Source: a virus
Length of the DNA stretch: 28,947 nt
Virus record (IMG/VR): IMGVR_UViG_3300025759_013899
Span: 1-28,947 of that record
Direction: 5' to 3' (one strand)
Shown here: positions 3,540-28,947 of the stretch, piece by piece
Layout: each line of letters begins with the position of its first letter
How positions within the stretch are numbered: position 1 is the stretch's first letter
Program-made: the position numbers and the translations under genes
The notes under the pieces: generated by a model
Databases searched by the model: none
The model's input: the letters and a program-made list of their open reading frames with translations, nothing else
What the model was told of the DNA's origin: nothing

Positions 3540-4703
3540 TTAACTAAGATTTCTTCCTAGAGCTTTATCCACAACAGGTAGTATCTTTGTTTCCCAATCT
3601 TTGTGCTTTATTATCTCGCCCATTAATTTTTCTTGATAAGGAGCATCTAAGCTACAGGAGTTACCCCCTTCTAGGGCGTTATAGAGAATGACTAAATTTT
3701 CAGGACTAAGCATAGTGCTTAGTTGCGCTATATTATTAGCGCATGTGTCTGGATCAGGTGTTTCTTCTTCAATAAAATTAATGACGTTATCTATAATAGA
3801 ACTAAACAGATCTACTCGTTCCTGTTTAATTTTATTCAAGGTTTTAAGGCTTTCCGACCACTTACCTAGTAAAATTTGTTCCGCCGTTATGTGCCACTCA
3901 ACATTCTGAGTGAACTTTATGAAGTGTTTAGCTCTATCTACATTTAAAAGCGTAGACAGTACCGTAGTATCTAGGTTACCTTCGTTTGCTAGCAGGAAGC
4001 TACTGACCTTTTCCCACTGTGCAGGATTAGCATAGATTTTACCTGCGTTTTTAGCTGGAAAATCTATGAGCTCTGTTCTATGTGACTCAACGTAGTTGAT
4101 CACATATTCATGGAAATTGTTAGCCTTAGCATACTTAAGCCAAGAGCTTACTTCAGCCTTCACTACTAGATGACAACCACGACGCCGCCAAGCCTCGTCT
4201 GATAAGATGTCACCCACTTGGAACCCCTTTGTTTGAGGATTACAGGCTGCATAGATATAGCAACTCTTGGGAAATTCCCAGTCATATAGTTTACGAGAGC
4301 CTAAGATACCAAATAAGGCGGAAGCGCTACCTGGAGTGTATCTAGTAATCTCGTCAAAAAGAACCACAGTAGGAATACCTTTAGCGTCATTGGCTATGAT
4401 TTTTTGTACCCAATGCGCCTTAAGCATCTTGAGGAAGCCATCTTCTGGGTAGCCTACCGCATAATCCTCTGGCTGTAATAGAGAGCAATCATGTACCTGA
4501 TAGTCTGCCCCTAGGTGTTTAGCTAATTGTGGTGCTAGAGCAGTCTTGCCAATGCCGCTTCCACCATGTAGGATAGGAAGAAGTCCAGCAGACCATAGTC
4601 CTAGAATTACCTCTTTAGATCTATTTAAGGGCACCACTTGGGCACCTAATTTGTTTGCATAGTCTTGCTCTTCCGAGAGCTCTGTTTTTATTTCATTAGA
4701 CAT
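3540..4703 (-). CDS. MoxR-type AAA+ ATPase
   Basis: The 387-aa protein is a MoxR/AAA_5-type ATPase. Walker A is GGSGIGKT (residues 47-54), Walker B is VVLFDE (Asp117, Glu118), sensor 1 is the Asn in YAACNPQ, and EAWRRRG supplies candidate arginine-finger residues. The region after about residue 190 is helical, as expected for the lid and C-terminal part. Start ATG 4703 has AAGGA 7 bp upstream. MoxR ATPases typically act with VWA-domain proteins as chaperone-like or metal-insertion machines (for example RavA-ViaA); the VWA-peptidase at 293-1852 is the obvious partner. The start codon is only 14 bp from the divergent terL start. The substrate in this phage is unknown. Confidence 0.9.
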   Translation of the reverse strand: MSNEIKTELSEEQDYANKLGAQVVPLNRSKEVILGLWSAGLLPILHGGSGIGKTALAPQLAKHLGADYQVHDCSLLQPEDYAVGYPEDGFLKMLKAHWVQKIIANDAKGIPTVVLFDEITRYTPGSASALFGILGSRKLYDWEFPKSCYIYAACNPQTKGFQVGDILSDEAWRRRGCHLVVKAEVSSWLKYAKANNFHEYVINYVESHRTELIDFPAKNAGKIYANPAQWEKVSSFLLANEGNLDTTVLSTLLNVDRAKHFIKFTQNVEWHITAEQILLGKWSESLKTLNKIKQERVDLFSSIIDNVINFIEEETPDPDTCANNIAQLSTMLSPENLVILYNALEGGNSCSLDAPYQEKLMGEIIKHKDWETKILPVVDKALGRNLS

Positions 4704-14248: not shown

Positions 14249-14764
14249 TTAGCTCTCTTTCTTTTTGTTAGCGTTAGCGTTAGCGTTAGCGTTAGCGTTT
14301 TCGGTTACCTCAGATTGAGGTATAACCTTATTAATTGAAAATTCCACTTCTGTAAAGCTTTTTATTGATATTTTTATGCTCCTAGATTTAAGCCCTCCTA
14401 GGGCATCTAGAACTCTATAAATAGCTTCTACTTTGTGGCTAGATTCACCAGGTATTTCTAGTGAGAATAGAGTATTGTCAAGAATATTAAAACCATGTAA
14501 GGTGTAAATATCCTTGCAAGGATGTACCGAGTCTCTATAAGGATTATAAAGGCAGTCTATGCAGCCTGTACCTGTAGTACTCGTTACTCCGTCATTAGAT
14601 TCACAGCCAGATGGGTGCTTTCTATATACTTGTACTTCCTCCAATACCACATCTATGCTAGAGCCGTAGGTTTGGGAAGGAGAATATATAGAGTTAGGAA
14701 GGTAGCCATTATCCATGGGAGTACTTATGGACAACAGTTCCCTTGAATTAGACATAGTAGACAT
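14249..14764 (-). CDS. Small Cys-motif protein, probable SSB-associated phage protein
   Basis: The 171-aa protein has a putative metal-binding segment, GCIDCLYNPY...HPCKD, near residues 70-86, followed by beta-rich sequence (IYTLHGFNILDNTLFSLEIPG) and a helix. This order, a CxxC...C segment followed by a strand-rich region, resembles small phage proteins often encoded next to SSB-like proteins; I cannot name the family with confidence. The C-terminus is an Asn-Ala repeat encoded by a 6-bp tandem repeat, then KKKES. Starts at 14764 or 14755 are possible. Its 5' end overlaps the divergent sigma gene head to head by up to 38 bp. It is 4 bp upstream of the SSB-like gene and almost surely cotranscribed with it. 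Confidence 0.65.
   Translation of the reverse strand: MSTMSNSRELLSISTPMDNGYLPNSIYSPSQTYGSSIDVVLEEVQVYRKHPSGCESNDGVTSTTGTGCIDCLYNPYRDSVHPCKDIYTLHGFNILDNTLFSLEIPGESSHKVEAIYRVLDALGGLKSRSIKISIKSFTEVEFSINKVIPQSEVTENANANANANANKKKES
14267..14296. repeat. Five tandem copies of GTTAGC
   Basis: Five perfect 6-bp units (GTTAGC on the plus strand) are followed by a degenerate sixth. On the minus strand they encode an alternating Asn-Ala tail of the 14249-14764 protein. Because the unit is 6 bp, a change in copy number alters tail length by two residues without a frameshift. Confidence 0.95.
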
Positions 14765-15401
14765 ATACTACACAGCCCTTTCTAGGGTTGAAATACTGGA
14801 CAAAGCCAGTGAAAAAAGTTTACTCATTACATATAAGAATACCTCCTGCAAAAAAACAAAAGAAAAAATAAAAGATACGGTAATTAAGTCTAACTTAAGA
14901 CTCGTTTTTGGTTTTGCCAAAAACTTTTGGGACCAGAAAGATCCTGTAAAACTACAAGAGCTTATAGCCCAAGGAAACATAGGATTACTATTGGCTTTGG
15001 ATAAGTTTGAACCTAAGTACAATGTTAGGTTCTGTACTTATGCCGGGCATTGGGTTCTTATGTCTATGCGCAAAGCTCACATAGGTTTAATAAAATCCAA
15101 TGGTAAGCCTTTGATAATAGAAGAAGAAACCTCAATACCTGAAAAGCCCTATGTACAGGATTTTGACTCTGCCATTGAAAACGTACAGCAGAGGCATATC
15201 TTAAATACTTGGCTTAGATTCCTAAGTGAAAGAGAGCGTTATATAATAATAAACTCTTTTTCCCTTAAGGATGCTGCAGCTGCTAGCAAGTCCCTTAGAG
15301 ACATGGCTAGCACTCTCAAACTGTCTAGCGAGCGGGTTAGACAGCTTAAAACCCAAGCCTTAGATAAGTTAGCTTTGTGGTTAACTTATCATATAGACTA
15401 A
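14727..15401 (+). CDS. Sigma-70-type RNA polymerase sigma factor
   Basis: The 224-aa protein is a compact sigma factor. Residues 50-118 are a well preserved region 2, with NLRLVFGFAK, then LIAQGNIGLLLALDKFE and RFCTYAGHWV, close to the RpoD/RpoH pattern for core binding and -10 recognition. Residues 155-215 are region 4 (LSERERYIIINSF, then SLRDMASTLKLSSERVRQLK), a helix-turn-helix for -35 contact. Region 1.1 is absent and region 3 is short. ATG 14727 with GGGAG 5 bp upstream is preferred to ATG 14715. It is the only plus-strand gene between minus-strand replication genes; it overlaps one neighbour head to head and the ParB-like gene tail to tail by 4 bp. It probably directs late transcription, by the phage polymerase or by host core. 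Confidence 0.92.
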   Translation: MDNSSLELDIVDIYYTALSRVEILDKASEKSLLITYKNTSCKKTKEKIKDTVIKSNLRLVFGFAKNFWDQKDPVKLQELIAQGNIGLLLALDKFEPKYNVRFCTYAGHWVLMSMRKAHIGLIKSNGKPLIIEEETSIPEKPYVQDFDSAIENVQQRHILNTWLRFLSERERYIIINSFSLKDAAAASKSLRDMASTLKLSSERVRQLKTQALDKLALWLTYHID

Positions 15402-17299: not shown

Positions 17300-19180
17300 C
17301 TATCGTAAAGCTTTTATAGGTATATTAGCTTTGCTGGTTTCAGCATCTAGAATGCAGTCAGTGTCAAAAGGTTCAATACCTCTATTCATACAATAAACTA
17401 CTTTAGTACAAGTTACACACTCTACTGACTTGCTCATCATGCTACTTGCATCTATTTTGGTTTGCAATAGTTTAATTACGCTATGAGCTAGGCTATCTTT
17501 TATAACAATAACCTGCACCAAAAGGGATTTAAATCCTTTAGCTCTTATGCCATAGTTTCTATCCAATGACTGAAGCCAGTGATCTAATCCCCAAGATAAC
17601 TCACAGTATACCATGACAGGTGCTTTGAAAGTTACACCAATACCCATAGATATTTGAGCTACTATTACCGCCCCCTCTAGCTCATTAAATTTCTTCTCGC
17701 AATCAGCATGGCTTTTAGTAGTGGAGTCATACCTAAGAATAGGTACATCTAATCTACCTAACTTAGTAACTAAGGTGTTTAATGTCCATTGGTGTTTTGC
17801 CCAGACTATAACTTTTTTACCGTTGGCTACATGTGAACTGACTAATTCTATACAAGAATCAATTACTTCCGTTGTTCCTACTAAACCTACATCTCTACCT
17901 GGGTCCTTAGTTTCCACAGAGCATTTAGATGTATAAGGGTTTATTTCGTTAGCTACGCAGTTTTGTAACTTAGGGCAGGCATCACAAATTGTAGGATCTT
18001 TCCGGCTCTTATATATAAAGCCCGAAGATAATTGAGCTAGCCTAGTCATAGCTACCAGAGGGTTATCTACTTCAGATAAAGCTAGTTCACCTACTTGTAT
18101 AGGAAGCTCCTTAACTACTTGGTTATATAGCTTTTTTGTTTTAGAGCTAGGTTCTATCTCTATAGTCTGGATAACTCTTTCAGGTAAGTCTAAACACTCC
18201 TCGGCAGTTCTTCGTAAAGATATAGAAGTTACTAGCTCATTAAGTTGGTCTAGGTTTTTCCAGCCAATAACTATGTGCTTGTTAAAGGGGCTTTTTAACG
18301 TATAGGTGTTTTGAAACTGCCAGCTATTAGGAACTAAAAACTGGCCTAAGGCTTTTAGCTGCCCCCATAAATGCATAGGAGAGCCTAAGGAAGGAGTACC
18401 ACTTAGTAGTAACCTCCTGTTGACTACTTTATTACTAAGCATCTCCAATACAGCTTTAGTTTTACCACTCCTAGGGGATCTAAGAGAGTGGCTTTCGTCT
18501 AGAATTACATCTGTGTATGGTACTACCTCTTGCAGCAGTTCTTTAGCTACTCTACATGTATCATAGGTAACCACTAAGCCTAGAGACTTAGGGTTTTGTA
18601 AAGCTTTTTCTATCTGAGATTTCCTAGCTTTACCTGTTTTAGTAATAGGTGTTAAGGTAAATTCCTGTTTACTATGAAACTCCATTTCGTTTTTCCAAGT
18701 AAATTGATTTACTTTTAAGGCTACTATTAGCCAGAACCTTTTACTTGCAGTATTGTTAACATGCATAATTAGATCACAACCTATTTTGGTCTTACCTAAG
18801 CCAGGATCTAAAAATAGGCCTACTCTAGGGGTATGTATAGCCAGGGCTAATGCACTTTTTTGATGGTCGTACAAAGGTACCTTAGGTACGTAGCCATCCA
18901 GGTTATCACTAGCTATACTAGACTCTGCCTTTTTTAGGTCGCAATCTAGTTGTGCTATACTAGGTAGTTTATTAAAGGTAGCTATGTCTTCTAGCTCTTT
19001 AATGTCATCTAGAACAAATCTGCCGAAAGGAAACATGCCTGGAGCAAACCATGTAGATTTATCCTTGCCATACGCCCTCATTCCAAATATGTTATTTACT
19101 ACAGGTACATCTTTAGGGGTTACTCCAGTAATGACTATTACTGGATCCCCTCCTACGCTGTTGGTTGTTTTTACTTCCAT
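17300..19180 (-). CDS. SNF2-like superfamily 2 DNA helicase/translocase with two cysteine modules
   Basis: The 626-aa protein has a helicase core with motif I LDPGLGKT (124-131), motif II DESH, motif III LLLSGTP, and a motif VI-like segment QSLDRNYGIRAKG, in line with SNF2/SWI2-type enzymes. A substrate-binding N-terminal part (1-100) precedes it. Two cysteine modules with exactly the same spacing, C-x2-C-x5-C-x11-C, occur at residues 399-420 and 588-609, each ending in a Pro-Tyr/Phe-x-x-x-Cys pattern; they probably bind zinc or an Fe-S cluster. The start ATG 19180 has AGGAGG 5 bp upstream. It heads the minus-strand replication operon and is divergent from portal. The likely role is remodelling or branch migration during replication and recombination. 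Confidence 0.9.
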   Translation of the reverse strand: MEVKTTNSVGGDPVIVITGVTPKDVPVVNNIFGMRAYGKDKSTWFAPGMFPFGRFVLDDIKELEDIATFNKLPSIAQLDCDLKKAESSIASDNLDGYVPKVPLYDHQKSALALAIHTPRVGLFLDPGLGKTKIGCDLIMHVNNTASKRFWLIVALKVNQFTWKNEMEFHSKQEFTLTPITKTGKARKSQIEKALQNPKSLGLVVTYDTCRVAKELLQEVVPYTDVILDESHSLRSPRSGKTKAVLEMLSNKVVNRRLLLSGTPSLGSPMHLWGQLKALGQFLVPNSWQFQNTYTLKSPFNKHIVIGWKNLDQLNELVTSISLRRTAEECLDLPERVIQTIEIEPSSKTKKLYNQVVKELPIQVGELALSEVDNPLVAMTRLAQLSSGFIYKSRKDPTICDACPKLQNCVANEINPYTSKCSVETKDPGRDVGLVGTTEVIDSCIELVSSHVANGKKVIVWAKHQWTLNTLVTKLGRLDVPILRYDSTTKSHADCEKKFNELEGAVIVAQISMGIGVTFKAPVMVYCELSWGLDHWLQSLDRNYGIRAKGFKSLLVQVIVIKDSLAHSVIKLLQTKIDASSMMSKSVECVTCTKVVYCMNRGIEPFDTDCILDAETSKANIPIKALR

Positions 19181-19205: not shown

Positions 19206-19225
19206 GCGTATACTTATAACATAAA
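19206..19225 (+). promoter_or_regulatory. Candidate phage promoter upstream of portal
   Basis: GCGTATACTTATAACATAAA differs at only two of 20 positions from the element at 23155-23174, and both lie at a matching distance (43 and 47 bp) from the start codon of a plus-strand gene. It does not look like a host -35/-10 pair. The likely reader is the phage polymerase or a core enzyme with the phage sigma factor. An ATGT-AA-ACAT inverted repeat lies just upstream (19191-19200). Confidence 0.65.
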
Positions 19226-23154: not shown

Positions 23155-23174
23155 GCATATACTTATGACATAAA
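23155..23174 (+). promoter_or_regulatory. Candidate phage promoter upstream of RNA polymerase
   Basis: GCATATACTTATGACATAAA matches the element at 19206-19225 in 18 of 20 positions and lies 47 bp before the ATG of the polymerase gene. Conservation of sequence and distance across two unrelated upstream regions is the evidence. If the phage polymerase reads it, the gene would be under positive autoregulation; that is inference. Confidence 0.65.
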
Positions 23175-23201: not shown

Positions 23202-26200
23202 ATGGCTATTAATACAAGACGTCTGTTTTTAACCCCCGAAGAGAGACAAAAACTTCTACGTGAGAAAACAATGGAGGAGTTAAAGGTCTATTTTCCTATA
23301 ATAGGCACTCACCACACTATAGAAGCGGATAACTTTCAGGTTAAAGAGAAGCCTGTAAGCTACAAAGACCACAAAAAAGCCCTGTTTAAAGGAGGATCTC
23401 TTTACGAACCCGTAAAAGCAGACTTAGTGGTGAAAGACAAAGAGGGGGCTGTAATTCAGCGTAAAAAAGGGCATACAGTAATGCACCTACCCAATGTTAC
23501 TTCTCATAATACTTTTGTAGTAGGTGGTAATGAATACGCTTTGAAACACCAGTTACGTACAAAACCTGGGGTATATACTCGTAGAAGAGGCAGTGATGAA
23601 TTAGAGTCTAGCTTTAACTTAGCTAAAGGAGCTAACTTTCGTTTATCACTAAATCCTGAAAAGGGTGGTATGCAAATGGAGTATGGATCTTCAAAGATAC
23701 CTTTGTACCCGATATTAAAACAAATGGGTTTACAAGATAACGATATATCTAAGTACTGGGGTACTAAATTAGTAGATAGAAATAGAGATCTTTACAAAAA
23801 TAAAGAGGAAGCATCGGTTAATAAGTTATTTAGTAAAATAGTGCCTAGAGCAGAGCAAGCATTAGCTACTAACTTAAAAGATAAATCTGCTGCTATATTA
23901 AGGGCCTATGATAATACTGTATTGGATGAAGAAACCACTGCTTCTACCTTAAAAAAAGGCTTTGCAAAAGTAACTCCAGAAAGCCTACTGGTAGCTAGTA
24001 AGAAGTTATTAAAAGTATATAATCAAGAGGAGGAAGAGGATGAACGGGATAGCTTAGAATTCCAAAAAGTAGTAGGACCTGAAGATATCTTTAAGGAACG
24101 CATAGCACTTAAAACCAGAGAGCTTCAATGGAAGATACGCAACAAGCTTGATTTAGCACCAAAAGTAGACCTTAAAAAGATAATGCCTACAGTAGCTACT
24201 GCAAATGAATTAAAAAAGTTTTTAAGTACTGCGCAGTTAGCTACTTTGCCATCGCAGATAAATCCAGTAGAAGTTATAGATAGCGCTTTAGCTGTAACTA
24301 GACTAGGCGAAGGTGGTATATCTAGCGGAATGGCAGTACCTGCCTCTGCCCGTAAGTTGCATAGTAGTATGCTTGGAATAATAGATCCGTTTAGAACCCC
24401 GGAATCTGCTAATACAGGAATAGACCAAAGATTTAGCATGAGAGCTCAAAGAGATGAGGCAGGCAATCTCTATGGAACATTTAAAGATAAAAAGGGTAGG
24501 ACAGTAGAAATTCCTGCTAAAGATATAGCTAACAAAGTAATAGCCTTTGCAGATCAAGATGTAAAGTCAGGTAGAGTAGATGCTATGGTTAGGGGTAAAA
24601 TAGGTAAAGTTTCGCCCAAAGAAGTAGATTACTATATAGATAAATCTGTAGACATGTATACATTAAATACCAATATGGTGCCTTTACTAGATAGTACCCA
24701 AGGAAACCGAGTAATAATGGGGGCTAAGATGGTAGGGCAAGCCATGCCTTTAGTCCATAGAGAAAAGCCACTAGTTACTAGTGGAGTTCATGGGGATGGT
24801 GGAGTAGAAGATTCCTTCGAACATATAGTAGGAACAAGCAGCACAAAGGGTATAACAAGCCAAGTTGATGGCACAGTAGCCAAAGTAACTAAGGATGAGA
24901 TTCATATAAAAGATGCTGCAGGTAAAATCCACATAGTAGAAGTACCTGAAGATATGCCTTTAGCCTCCAAAACTTTCTTAACGGGTGAAGTAAAAGTTAG
25001 ACCAGGAGACAAGGTTACTAAAGAGAAAACCATACTTATGGATACTAACTTCACTAAAGACGGCACTATGGCTTTAGGCAAAAACCTAAAAGTAGGTTAC
25101 TTAGCTTATCATGGTTTAAATAGTAATGACGCTGTAGTAATGTCTAAAGGTGCTACTGAAAAAATGGCCTCTATAAACATGACTAAGTATGTTATAGAGG
25201 ATGACAGAGATACCGTTATAGATAAAAATAAGCATTCAGCTAACTTCCCTAGACTATTTACAAAAGATCAATATAACAAATTGGATAGGGGCATAGTTAA
25301 AGTTGGCACTAAGCTAAAGGCAGGAGATCCAATAAGTACTGTTCTTAGAAAAAGAACCCCTAGCATAGAGAATCAGATATTAGGAAAAGTACATAAATCT
25401 TTACGTCAAGAGTACTCTGATTCTAGCGATGTTTGGGATAGGTCCTCAGAAGGTGAAGTTATCGCAGTAGAAAAAGAAGGAAAAAGAACTACTGTGGTGG
25501 TTAAAAGTATTGAGAAGCTTAAGATAGGGGATAAGGTTAGTAATAGATATGGAGGTAAAGGGGTAATTAGTAAGATAGTAGATGACGGAGACATGGTGCA
25601 GGATGAGGCAGGAAAGCCTATTGATATACTATGGAGTTCTTTAGGGGTAGTTAGCCGCATAAACCCTTCTCAAGTAATAGAGACAGCGGCAGCTAAGGTA
25701 GCAGAGAAGACAGGTAAGCCTCTAGCTATACAGTCTTTTAAAAAGCGTAATAATGTTAAGTGGGTTAGAGATCTCATGAAGAAGCATGGAGTAAAAGATA
25801 AAGAGACTGTTTTCGATCCTATCACAGGTAAGAAGATACCTAACATCATGGTAGGGCCTCAATATACCTATAAATTATTTAAATCATCAGATACTAACTA
25901 TGCAGCTAGAGGTCTTAACGGTGGTTATGACGTTAACGATGCTCCCAGTAAGGGAGGGGTTACTGGGGCTAAAGGAACAGGTATAATGGAAATTAATGGG
26001 TTATTAGCTCATGATGCTAGAGACATACTCAAAGAAAACGCTATCTTAAAGGGAACTAGGAATACAGAGTTCTGGAGAGCCTTTCAACTAGGTAGACCTT
26101 TACCCCCTCCAAAATCAAACTTTGCTTTCGATAAGTTTAAAGGAATGTTAGCGGGTGCTGGATTAAGATTTAAACAAGAAGGCAACATGATGTCTATGGC

Positions 26201-27557
26201 CCCTATGTTAGACGAAGAAGTTAGGAAAATGTCTAACGGAGAAATAGAAAATAGCCGTATGGTTATTTCTAAAAACCTTAGGAGCGAAAAAGGCGGCTTG
26301 TTTGATATAGGAAAAACAGGAGGTGTTGTAGGCAATAAGTGGACACATATAGAGTTACCTGAGCCCGTAGTAAACCCTTTATTTAAAGATGCTAGTCGTA
26401 GGTTACTTGGACTTACTGAAAAAGGGTTAGACGAAGAGTTAGCCAGTAAAGGCGGCGACTATATAAAGGGTAAGCTAAATGAAATAGATGTAGAATCTAA
26501 AGTAAAAAGTTTAAGGGCTCAGTTAAATACCAAAAAAGGTTCCGACAAAGATAATGTATACAAGCAAATAAAAGCCCTAAAAGCGTTAAAATCTAACAAC
26601 TTAAAGCCTGGGGATGCCTATACAATGAAAGCATTTCCAGTGCTACCTCCGAAGCTAAGACCCATAGTCCCTGGTGCTAAAGGAGACTTACTTATCTCTG
26701 ATTTAAATCACGTCTACAAAGATTTAATCTTAGCCAAACAGAAATTACAAGAAGCCAAAGACTTAGGGCTACCTGACAACGATGTAAAAGATATGCGTAA
26801 GCATATGATGGATGCTGCAGGAGCAGTTATAGGGACAAGCCCTCCAGTGTCTGCTAATCTGCAAGCAAAGCAGGTTAAGGGTATAGTTAACACCATCTCT
26901 GGAACTAAAACAGGGTTCTTTAATGGTAAGATACTGTCTAGGCGTTTGGATTTCACTGGTAGAGGAACTGCTGCTCCCGATCCAAGTTTAGGTATGGATG
27001 AAGTAGGCCTACCTGAAACCATGATGTGGGATATGTATTCTCCTTTTGTGATAAAAAATTTAGTTAAAGGAGGGTATTCGGCTATCCAGGCTAAGCAAAT
27101 GGTAGATAATAAAAACTCTAGAGCCCGAGAAGAGTTAATGATAGAGTCTAACAGACGTCCTGTTATACTTAATAGAGCGCCTTCTTTACATAGATTTAAT
27201 ATGATTAGCTTTAAACCTAAGCCTGTAGAGGGTACTACTATTCAAGTAAACCCCTTTATGGAGGATGGTATGAACCTAGACTATGACGGAGATGCTTTGC
27301 AAGTACATGTACCCGTAACTACTGGGGCTGTTAATGACGCTAAAAAAATGTTCTTATCTAACAATGTCTTAGGAGATAGAAATCCTAACACTATCTTAGC
27401 TTATCCTAAGCAAGAAGCTATGGCTGGATTGTACAAAGCTACTTTGGGCTCCCCCTCAGGGAAAGTCCATAAGTTTAAAACAACTCGGGATGCCTTGGCT
27501 GCCTATAGACGAGGTGCTTTAAAGACGACTGATAATGTGGAGATAGAAGATGAATAG
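23202..27557 (+). CDS. Multisubunit-type RNA polymerase: beta fused to the N-terminal half of beta-prime
   Basis: The 1451-aa protein spans two subunits. The beta part (1 to about 1010) has TFVVGGNEYALKHQLRTKPGVY, IDPFRTPESANTGI near residue 394, NRVIMGAKMVGQAMPL, HGLNSNDAVVMS (Asp643) and GDKVSNRYGGKGV, with Lys778 and Lys786 at the spacing of E. coli Lys1065 and Lys1073. The beta-prime part has KGGLFD near 1027, LPPKLRP, clamp-helix sequence SDLNHVYKDLILAKQKL (from 1166), RRLDFTGRG (1247-1255), NRAPSLHRF (1324-1332) and NLDYDGD (1358-1364), with all three Mg-binding Asp. It ends about 85 residues later, so bridge helix and trigger loop are absent. The beta-prime zinc ribbon is missing. A second polypeptide should supply the rest. 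The gene overlaps the next by 8 bp and lies among virion genes. Confidence 0.95.
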   Translation: MAINTRRLFLTPEERQKLLREKTMEELKVYFPIIGTHHTIEADNFQVKEKPVSYKDHKKALFKGGSLYEPVKADLVVKDKEGAVIQRKKGHTVMHLPNVTSHNTFVVGGNEYALKHQLRTKPGVYTRRRGSDELESSFNLAKGANFRLSLNPEKGGMQMEYGSSKIPLYPILKQMGLQDNDISKYWGTKLVDRNRDLYKNKEEASVNKLFSKIVPRAEQALATNLKDKSAAILRAYDNTVLDEETTASTLKKGFAKVTPESLLVASKKLLKVYNQEEEEDERDSLEFQKVVGPEDIFKERIALKTRELQWKIRNKLDLAPKVDLKKIMPTVATANELKKFLSTAQLATLPSQINPVEVIDSALAVTRLGEGGISSGMAVPASARKLHSSMLGIIDPFRTPESANTGIDQRFSMRAQRDEAGNLYGTFKDKKGRTVEIPAKDIANKVIAFADQDVKSGRVDAMVRGKIGKVSPKEVDYYIDKSVDMYTLNTNMVPLLDSTQGNRVIMGAKMVGQAMPLVHREKPLVTSGVHGDGGVEDSFEHIVGTSSTKGITSQVDGTVAKVTKDEIHIKDAAGKIHIVEVPEDMPLASKTFLTGEVKVRPGDKVTKEKTILMDTNFTKDGTMALGKNLKVGYLAYHGLNSNDAVVMSKGATEKMASINMTKYVIEDDRDTVIDKNKHSANFPRLFTKDQYNKLDRGIVKVGTKLKAGDPISTVLRKRTPSIENQILGKVHKSLRQEYSDSSDVWDRSSEGEVIAVEKEGKRTTVVVKSIEKLKIGDKVSNRYGGKGVISKIVDDGDMVQDEAGKPIDILWSSLGVVSRINPSQVIETAAAKVAEKTGKPLAIQSFKKRNNVKWVRDLMKKHGVKDKETVFDPITGKKIPNIMVGPQYTYKLFKSSDTNYAARGLNGGYDVNDAPSKGGVTGAKGTGIMEINGLLAHDARDILKENAILKGTRNTEFWRAFQLGRPLPPPKSNFAFDKFKGMLAGAGLRFKQEGNMMSMAPMLDEEVRKMSNGEIENSRMVISKNLRSEKGGLFDIGKTGGVVGNKWTHIELPEPVVNPLFKDASRRLLGLTEKGLDEELASKGGDYIKGKLNEIDVESKVKSLRAQLNTKKGSDKDNVYKQIKALKALKSNNLKPGDAYTMKAFPVLPPKLRPIVPGAKGDLLISDLNHVYKDLILAKQKLQEAKDLGLPDNDVKDMRKHMMDAAGAVIGTSPPVSANLQAKQVKGIVNTISGTKTGFFNGKILSRRLDFTGRGTAAPDPSLGMDEVGLPETMMWDMYSPFVIKNLVKGGYSAIQAKQMVDNKNSRAREELMIESNRRPVILNRAPSLHRFNMISFKPKPVEGTTIQVNPFMEDGMNLDYDGDALQVHVPVTTGAVNDAKKMFLSNNVLGDRNPNTILAYPKQEAMAGLYKATLGSPSGKVHKFKTTRDALAAYRRGALKTTDNVEIEDE

Positions 27558-27789
27558 CCTACGCAAAGCATATCTAATAGGTAAGCAACTTTATTTAAGT
27601 AAGGTAGCTGCAGAACTTGATTCAGAGAAAAATCTTACAAGTGTTCTAAAGGCTCTAGTATCTAATACCCCAGAAGAAGACTCTGAAGAAGTAGATGAGG
27701 TATTAGGGGGTGAAGAACGTAAGTCTAAGGCTACCTGGGGCGATAAGATTAACCTAGAGCCTAGCTCTGCACAGGGGATAGAAGTATGA
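27550..27789 (+). CDS. Small hypothetical protein after RNA polymerase
   Basis: The 79-aa protein starts inside the end of the polymerase gene (8-bp overlap) and ends in an ATGA overlap with the next gene, so the three are translationally coupled. It begins with a helix (SLRKAYLIGKQLYLSKVAAEL) that resembles the start of the next protein, followed by a highly acidic segment (EEDSEEVDEV). It could be a small polymerase-associated or virion protein. I do not recognise it. Confidence 0.75.
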   Translation: MNSLRKAYLIGKQLYLSKVAAELDSEKNLTSVLKALVSNTPEEDSEEVDEVLGGEERKSKATWGDKINLEPSSAQGIEV

Positions 27790-28628
27790 ATAATGAAGAA
27801 GCATTACTAAAAGCCTATAAGCTAGGTTGTGAGCTAGCGTACAGCTCTGATAGGGAGAAAACTGCCTTTATAGCTCCCGTAGTTAATGCAGCTAAGTTCA
27901 TGTTTATGGGAGGTAATTTAGGTAGAGCAGGTAGCGTGGCTTCAAAAATAAGCCCTCATTGGGTCGGAGCTCCTTTAGGCTTTGGTGCAATGGAAGCAGC
28001 TATGGCAGAAGAAGGAGACAAGGTAAATGCTTTCGGCAGAGGTATGGTCTCAGGTTTATTATTTAATCCTTTAATGTCTATCGGAGGTAAAATTGGAGGT
28101 AGATTATTAGCTCCAGGATTAAAGGGCATGGGTACTGGAAGCTCTGCAGCTAAATTTATGAGAAGAGTTGGGTTTAGTCCTGAAGCCGCCCAGCATATGC
28201 AGCTAGCCAGGGGTTTAAATAAACAGCTGCATAGCGGCATGCTTAAAAACACGCAAAGAGCTTTGCAGTCCGGTAATTATACTGGAGGCAATATAAAGAA
28301 GTATCTAGATAAAATAGACTCAAAAATGGTACCCGAAGCTTTAAGAAATGATTTATTAAAACTACAAAACCAATTTAGTGGTAGAGTAGCCGCTAGTCAA
28401 CAATCTGCTGCTTTACAAGACCTACAGAACTTCAGCAAGAAGCTGTATGAGGTAGGTTACGGCTCTGGAGGAAAGGCAGCTCAGAGAGCATTGAAAGCTA
28501 CTAGAGTAGCAAAGGGTGTAGGTATGGCTGCAGGAGGTATGGGACTAGGTATGATGGGTAGCCATCCGATAACTGCTTCTATGGATAATTCCCAAGCTTC
28601 TTACTTTAATGAATACGGAGGTCACTAA
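27786..28628 (+). CDS. Hypothetical Gly/Ala-rich protein, possible virion or membrane-active protein
   Basis: The 280-aa protein begins with EALLKAYKLGCELAYSSDREKTAF, a helix that matches the N-terminus of the preceding gene product (L-x-KAY-x-x-G-x-x-L). The rest is Gly/Ala/Met-rich with hydrophobic glycine-zipper-like stretches (GRGMVSGLLFNPLMSIGG and a second one at the C-terminus), separated by a helical, polar part (residues about 115-220). This resembles ejected or membrane-interacting virion proteins, but that is inference. The following gene starts 1 bp after its stop, with GGAGGT upstream. Confidence 0.7.
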   Translation: MNNEEALLKAYKLGCELAYSSDREKTAFIAPVVNAAKFMFMGGNLGRAGSVASKISPHWVGAPLGFGAMEAAMAEEGDKVNAFGRGMVSGLLFNPLMSIGGKIGGRLLAPGLKGMGTGSSAAKFMRRVGFSPEAAQHMQLARGLNKQLHSGMLKNTQRALQSGNYTGGNIKKYLDKIDSKMVPEALRNDLLKLQNQFSGRVAASQQSAALQDLQNFSKKLYEVGYGSGGKAAQRALKATRVAKGVGMAAGGMGLGMMGSHPITASMDNSQASYFNEYGGH

Positions 28629-28629
28629 C

Positions 28630-28947
28630 ATGAACTTAGAACGAGTATATAATAATTTAACCAAAGAAGCCTCTTCCACTCCATTACTATTAGCTATAGG
28701 CGCAGGTGCAGGTATTGGAGGTCTTTATGGTGTGGGAGATTCTAAATATAATTATCACTCCGAGTTACTGTCTCCTAGCGTAGGGTCTAGGGCTGTACAG
28801 GGGGCAGGTACTGCTGCAGCAGGATTAACTAGTTACCAAGCCTTAAGAAAGCTTGGCCTAAATCCTTTACTTTCAGGGTTAGGTAGCTTAGGGGCTGGGT
28901 TTGCTACCGCAAAAGCTTTAAAGCCCAAAGGGTTAATTATGAATGAC
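28630..28947 (+). CDS. Hypothetical Gly/Ala-rich protein, N-terminal part (runs off the right edge)
   Basis: The frame opens at ATG 28630, 9 bp after a GGAGGT, and is open for 106 codons to the end of the window. The protein starts MNLERVYNNLTKEASSTPLLL and then has Gly/Ala-rich hydrophobic stretches (AIGAGAGIGGLYGVG, GLGSLGAGFATAKAL). It resembles the preceding protein in composition and is probably another virion or membrane-active component of the same operon. No family is recognised. Confidence 0.7.
   Translation, partial: MNLERVYNNLTKEASSTPLLLAIGAGAGIGGLYGVGDSKYNYHSELLSPSVGSRAVQGAGTAAAGLTSYQALRKLGLNPLLSGLGSLGAGFATAKALKPKGLIMND

Follow-up and report, generated by a model that had tools for sequence, protein, structure and literature searches.

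Reviews of phage transcription describe phages that encode a multisubunit RNA polymerase (RNAP) and no recognisable sigma factor, and phages that encode a sigma factor and no RNAP (PMC7598289, PMC7824862, PMC13282480). The stretch of viral DNA analysed here, a complete virus record of 28,947 bases that is itself a fragment (hereafter the window), carries genes for both, which raises the question of which core enzyme its sigma factor serves, that of the phage or that of the host. We lean, with modest confidence, towards the first answer, i.e. that the sigma factor joins the phage core in a phage holoenzyme that would start transcription at TGKYATAAGTA promoters on the strand of the replication genes. 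The phage family concerned is abundant in metagenomes and almost unstudied, and with four cultured members, Arash (Salmonella) and D69, D181 and D148 (Vibrio), the question can be tested now. Both genes are already annotated in GenBank for Arash; a search of the open-licence literature returned no papers on this phage, on transcription in its cultured relatives or on a phage with a sigma factor plus a multisubunit RNAP. Features of the window are listed in Table 1.

Table 1. Positions of the features discussed in the text, counted from the first base of the window
Feature	Position	Strand	Remarks
Sigma-70-family factor	14715..15401	+	228 aa; Pfam, PHROG, AF2
SNF2-type helicase	17300..19180	-	Pfam SNF2-rel_dom 2e-22; predicted phage promoter ahead
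Predicted phage promoter core, sense ATGTTATAAGTATACGC	19206..19222	-	Upstream of SNF2 helicase gene
Predicted phage promoter core, sense ATGTCATAAGTATATGC, extended -10-like	23155..23171	-	Zero-mismatch copy of clade motif
-35-like CACAAA	23185..23190	-	17 bp from -10-like CATAAG; read from sequence
Phage RNAP large chain (beta fused to beta' N-half)	23202..27557	+	1451 aa
Flap-tip helix, residues 718-735, PSIENQILGKVHKSL region	25353..25406	+	Alignment to T. thermophilus beta
beta' clamp helices, residues 1166-1210	26697..26831	+	Docking site of sigma region 2 in bacteria
Catalytic DYDGD, beta' double-psi barrel	27279..27293	+	Invariant columns D1360-D1364
Two small genes	27786..28947	+	280 aa; 113 aa (open at window end)

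The sigma factor of the window

The window encodes a true sigma-70-type factor. The original prediction that it keeps clear regions 2 and 4 was confirmed by Pfam, with Sigma70_r2 (E=4e-8) and the helix-turn-helix Sigma70_r4 (E=1.5e-7) both above the curated cut-off, and by an AlphaFold2 (AF2) model (pLDDT 86) that matched sigma-70/SigA chains with a Z of about 16 and in which 111-113 residues of regions 1.2-2 could be superimposed at about 2 A on the sigma of E. coli or Thermus. Regions 1.2 and 2.1-2.4 are present along with region 4, region 3 is not clear, and the family PHROG_351, 'RNA polymerase sigma factor', was matched with E=6e-22. Core binding and promoter-specific initiation are the predicted functions of the protein. 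An in-frame ATG at 14727, where the original prediction placed the start, is a likelier start than 14715, with a better fit to the N-termini of the relatives, and may be the actual one. The start of the gene is overlapped by that of a 171-aa protein with NANANANANAN near its C-terminus, derived from a short in-frame hexanucleotide repeat (window about 14262-14304).

Across the phage family sigma identity goes down to about 25%. Such divergence would fit a sigma that is an inherited minor gene, or an anti-host factor sequestering host core, its co-occurrence with the RNAP being a matter of phylogenetic inertia. Against this, the equivalents of the promoter-reading residues Y430 and W434 are retained in the family sigmas and a matching candidate promoter class is found, as described below, and we regard this explanation as very improbable.

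The phage polymerase and its association with sigma

The polymerase ORF gave Pfam matches to Rpb2_6 (1e-43), Rpb1_2 (3e-21), Rpb1_1 (9e-14) and Rpb2_3 (9e-6), and its relatives are 76-79% identical to it. It matched bacterial beta with an E of 1e-56 and did not match the phiKZ polymerase at 1e-5; no close relatives were found in bacterial genomes. Multisubunit RNAPs have two lysines in the beta barrel, and the corresponding motif GDKVSNRYGGKG is present in the window. The ORF terminates shortly past the catalytic DYDGD and comprises beta together with no more than the N-half of beta'. The bridge helix and the trigger loop belong to the C-half, which lies beyond the window. Relatives encode this C-half in a gene of its own (about 591 aa), and since in one of them (L005) it directly follows the same two small genes with which the window ends, the window seems to be cut just ahead of it. 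The beta' C-half was present in 27/27 long records, all 27 with a match to Rpb1_5 (bridge helix/trigger loop), and a trigger-loop-like EPLTQMALSAKHG was found in L003; no alpha subunit was found in any of these 27 long family records. Catalytic activity is a predicted property of the enzyme. RNAP searches gave one RNAP locus per long record, although a very divergent second set could escape them.

Apart from beta plus beta' N-half with a separate beta' C-half, the family includes polymerases made of beta alone (about 1100 aa, L060-L079) and single chains in which full beta and beta' are fused (2015 and 2165 aa; L051:9995-16039 and L054:9956-16450). Several RNAP genes are interrupted: those of Vibrio D181 and D148 (OZ196140, OZ196545) by a homing endonuclease, those of G059 and G062 by stop codons within the RNAP match, and also those of G070 and G072, while G073-G075 have an in-frame insertion of about 1 kb near residue 402. 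These interruptions are likely introns or inteins.

In pattern scans the polymerase turned up in 76 virus contigs and sigma at 60 loci, the longest contigs of the family reaching about 200 kb. Sigma was found in 42 of 50 polymerase-bearing records, including 19 of the 20 above 100 kb, and conversely RNAP was found in 12/13 sigma-first records above this length. Both genes had the same orientation in 40/42 records; in Arash and in the clade of the window, sigma precedes the polymerase by 8-9 kb. The proposed check that relatives always carry both genes together is therefore borne out nearly always in long records, with a single exception: G033, a 150 kb fragment with a divergent single-chain beta-beta' fusion, in which a search with the family profile gave no sigma either. 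The presence of sigma together with a near-complete phage core is a trait of this family, against the rule drawn in the reviews, and the same is true of a separate Vibrio lineage (150E35-1, 1.031.O). The co-occurrence may be mere shared descent of two core genes. Recognisable phage sigmas are documented to redirect the host core (PMC7598289, PMC7824862), and the sigma of the window could do the same, in the manner of T4 gp55 or SPO1 gp28; the phage RNAP would then act separately, e.g. as an enzyme of the virion, either with a different specificity factor or without one. Sigma tracks RNAP both ways, which argues against this. We consider such redirection unlikely, also in view of the interface and promoter data presented in the following sections.

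The sigma-core interface

According to the original prediction the phage polymerase keeps a clamp-helix segment from residue 1166. The segment itself was corroborated, given that SDLNHVYKDLILAKQKL begins exactly at this residue and aligns without gaps to the bacterial beta' clamp helices, and that the AF2 model shows a two-helix hairpin (residues 1167-1187 and 1192-1210); most of the sigma-docking residues, however, are replaced. In E. coli, sigma region 2.2 (403, 406, 407, 409) touches the clamp helices, where the contacts are R275, R278, R281, L282, L285, I291, E295 and M298 (PMC10216364, PMC8321222), and R275Q, E295K and A302D impair holoenzyme formation, as cited in PMC8321222. Because the alignment is gapless, phage residues can be paired with those of E. 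coli: R275 corresponds to A1178, R278 to K1181, R281 to E1184, L282 to A1185, I291 to D1194, E295 to M1198 and M298 to H1201, while L285 and A302 are unchanged. At the position of R275 the 50 records have A, V, L, I, S or T, and never R. On the sigma side, Q406 is replaced in all family members and E407 in all except G032; the window sequence ELIAQ retains the acid at 403, with A for Q406 and Q for E407, although D403, Q406 and E407 are typical rather than strictly defining bacterial core contacts, from which other phage sigmas deviate too.

Loss of E407 was considered as sole proof of a phage-specific interface and rejected, since it also occurs in sigmas of phages without a beta' match, for which a host core is presumed (SCTP-2, ELIQQ; BX-1, DVIQM). 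In this small control set Q406 is kept, so that only the changes at Q406 and R275 stand out. That E407 is lost in phage sigmas without RNAP speaks in favour of redirection of host core, while the disappearance of bacterial contact residues on both partners speaks against it and suggests, with modest weight, a rewired and dedicated pair. A point against a phage holoenzyme comes from the 150E35-1/1.031.O lineage, which has its own RNAP and a sigma that keeps Q406 (and, in 150E35-1, also E407). Mutual-information covariation between sigma and RNAP did not place the clamp columns clearly above background, at an effective number of 28.

In bacteria the flap-tip helix holds sigma region 4 (PMC10216364). 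Nearly all 50 records retain this helix, which has diverged in G032 and G033; it appears in the AF2 model as a short helix of low confidence. An earlier reading in which it had been deleted proved mistaken, since the flap is shortened elsewhere and still has its tip helix SIENQILGKVHKSL. The phage polymerase therefore retains both elements on which sigma docks, the clamp helices and the flap-tip helix; if sigma acted on host core, the flap-tip helix of the phage beta would be left without a region-4 partner. The clamp helices alone do not reveal a sigma-70 partner, because the non-virion RNAP (nvRNAP) of phiKZ also has them and its sigma-like gp68 docks there (PMC7618050). Hence, of the expectation that a phage core plus sigma would be unusual, what stands is that reviews treat the two as alternatives; retention of clamp helices in itself is not unusual.

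A phage-specific promoter class

Intergenic regions ahead of the polymerase and portal genes share the motif GYRTATACTTATRACAY. It was first taken as rightward, serving RNAP and portal, until the relatives showed it to be oriented leftward, in which direction it reads TGKYATAAGTA. It is most likely the 20-bp element of the original prediction, which proved to be a probable promoter judging from its copies in relatives, facing leftward to replication genes and not to the polymerase. The 13-base core of the motif was matched 14 times, in 9 records, and the reversed pattern not at all, and about 15 more copies, facing genes on the - strand, were found in the 147-kb relative G002. Arash and D69 have counterparts (TGGTATAAGTAA and TGTTATAAGTAATATAG, respectively) enriched ahead of leftward genes, an ORF start following 11 of 12 copies in Arash, where TGGTATAAGTA is the word for promoters of this class. 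In 39 family records, some of them partly redundant related contigs, TGKYATAAGTA had 158 matches versus 7 for the reversed pattern, and 153 of the 158 were on the strand opposite RNAP. There was no excess of it in the outgroups T4, SPO1, phiKZ, YerA41, Va2 and 150E35-1, nor in the sigma-less G033. It is also absent from some subclades that have sigma and RNAP, whose promoter may have diverged.

In some clades the motif is accompanied by a -35-like box, ACGCAAA at 17 bp in G002 and G009 and TTCAAT at 18 bp in D69; none was seen in Arash. Every promoter core has G at -7, where host sigma-70 promoters have T. Taken together, the motif data point to a phage-specific, sigma-like promoter class. Its resemblance to an extended -10 element would be compatible with redirection of host core, and the G at -7 in all cores argues against it. 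Only a loose likeness exists between YATAAGTA and the T4 late promoter, TATAAATA. A general repeat search of the window returned chance-like families only.

The helicase gene that follows one of the predicted promoters sits between sigma and RNAP in the window (17300-19180). SNF2 helicases correlate with RNAP in phiKZ-type phages (Iyer et al., PMC7824862). Elsewhere in the window, a DUF2201 VWA/metallopeptidase-like gene (293-1876) and an AAA_5 ATPase gene (3540-4703), both assigned by Pfam, resemble a MoxR-VWA pair.

A second sigma-like protein

Arash gp10 (OQ632216 11892-12596) is also annotated as sigma factor. Of 32 long records 26 have a relative of gp10, whose gene invariably points the same way as RNAP, and in G002 the gene (24751-25452; L236:4751-5452) is in the tail module, adjoining a baseplate-like gene; among sequenced phages, full-length relatives were found only in the four cultured family members. 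These proteins have an intact region 3, with Pfam values of 9e-9 for Arash and 3e-6 for G002, whereas their region 2 is degenerate and falls short of the Pfam cut-off. Their existence is the main reason why the assignment of partners among sigma, core and promoter is less firm.

Given its frequency, its constant RNAP orientation and its location among tail genes, the gp10-type protein could be the partner of the RNAP, packaged together with it, leaving the sigma of the window for host core or for another class of promoters. The sequence TAAAATA(TA) is enriched ahead of rightward genes in Arash and D69, including the beta' C-half gene of Arash, and is a possible second promoter class that would agree with such a role. 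Nevertheless, TAAAATA was not borne out as a family-wide class, being seen in D69 and Arash, and the degenerate region 2 of gp10-type proteins, even with region 3 intact, counts against this partnership, which we find rather improbable. A broader arrangement can be entertained tentatively, and with some doubt: a self-contained system of an alpha-less core and two dedicated sigma-70-type factors, one encoded alongside replication genes and the other within the tail module, each perhaps with its own promoter class, with core and tail-module sigma perhaps injected with the DNA.

A putative phage holoenzyme

In the holoenzyme that we favour, the core would be alpha-less and bacteria-like, with beta and the N-half of beta' in a single chain and the C-half of beta' in another. 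The phage clamp helices would receive region 2 of sigma and the phage flap-tip helix would receive region 4, across an interface that would have drifted from the bacterial one on both partners. Initiation would take place at TGKYATAAGTA, with a -35-like box 17-18 bp upstream in some clades, and these promoters would drive leftward replication-type genes; both the binding of sigma to the phage core and its reading of this motif are what we infer from sequence. The genes for RNAP, and usually for sigma, are on the other strand, in the company of structural genes, so synthesis may occur late and the virion may take both proteins along to start the next infection, which is speculation.

Should sigma and core indeed associate in this holoenzyme, phages of this family may transcribe genes with a complete machine of their own, and the holoenzyme would be an example from nature of an orthogonal sigma/core pair that lacks alpha and whose interface has been rewired. 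Such a pair would be useful to study the evolution of sigma-core specificity and the origin of promoter recognition in phiKZ-like phage polymerases, and could serve to express genes orthogonally.

Comparison with known systems

T4 gp55 and SPO1 gp28 are likewise phage sigma-70-family proteins associated with phage-specific promoters, whereas the sigma described here is tied to a phage RNAP; a beta' match was found in neither T4 nor SPO1. With the bacterial sigma-70 holoenzyme the system shares both docking elements, regions 1.2, 2 and 4, and a -35/-10-like promoter with a 17-18 bp spacer in some clades. It differs from it in that alpha was not found, the subunits are split differently, region 3 is not recognisable, contacts are replaced and G is present at -7.

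The Vibrio phages 150E35-1 (OX241562) and 1.031.O (MG592415) also combine their own multisubunit RNAP with a sigma-70 homologue, but their RNAP belongs to another lineage, with about 24-29% identity in beta' only. In Arash, D69, D181 and D148, which are of the same family as the window, RNAP is 33% identical, and all have sigma and the second sigma-like protein.

The nvRNAPs of phiKZ and AR9, with gp68 and gp226, are similar in being alpha-less and in having a split beta' with DxDGD, and clamp helices with a sigma-like subunit on them (PMC7618050, PMC9209446). Systems of the phiKZ type are defined by beta and beta' each in at least two polypeptides, virion and non-virion sets, and a gp68/gp226-type subunit in place of a recognisable sigma-70. 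Here, in contrast, only beta' is split, beta being undivided and joined to the beta' N-half, the polymerase is far closer to bacterial RNAP, and the sigma encoded is recognisable as a sigma-70 homologue and has regions 2 and 4.
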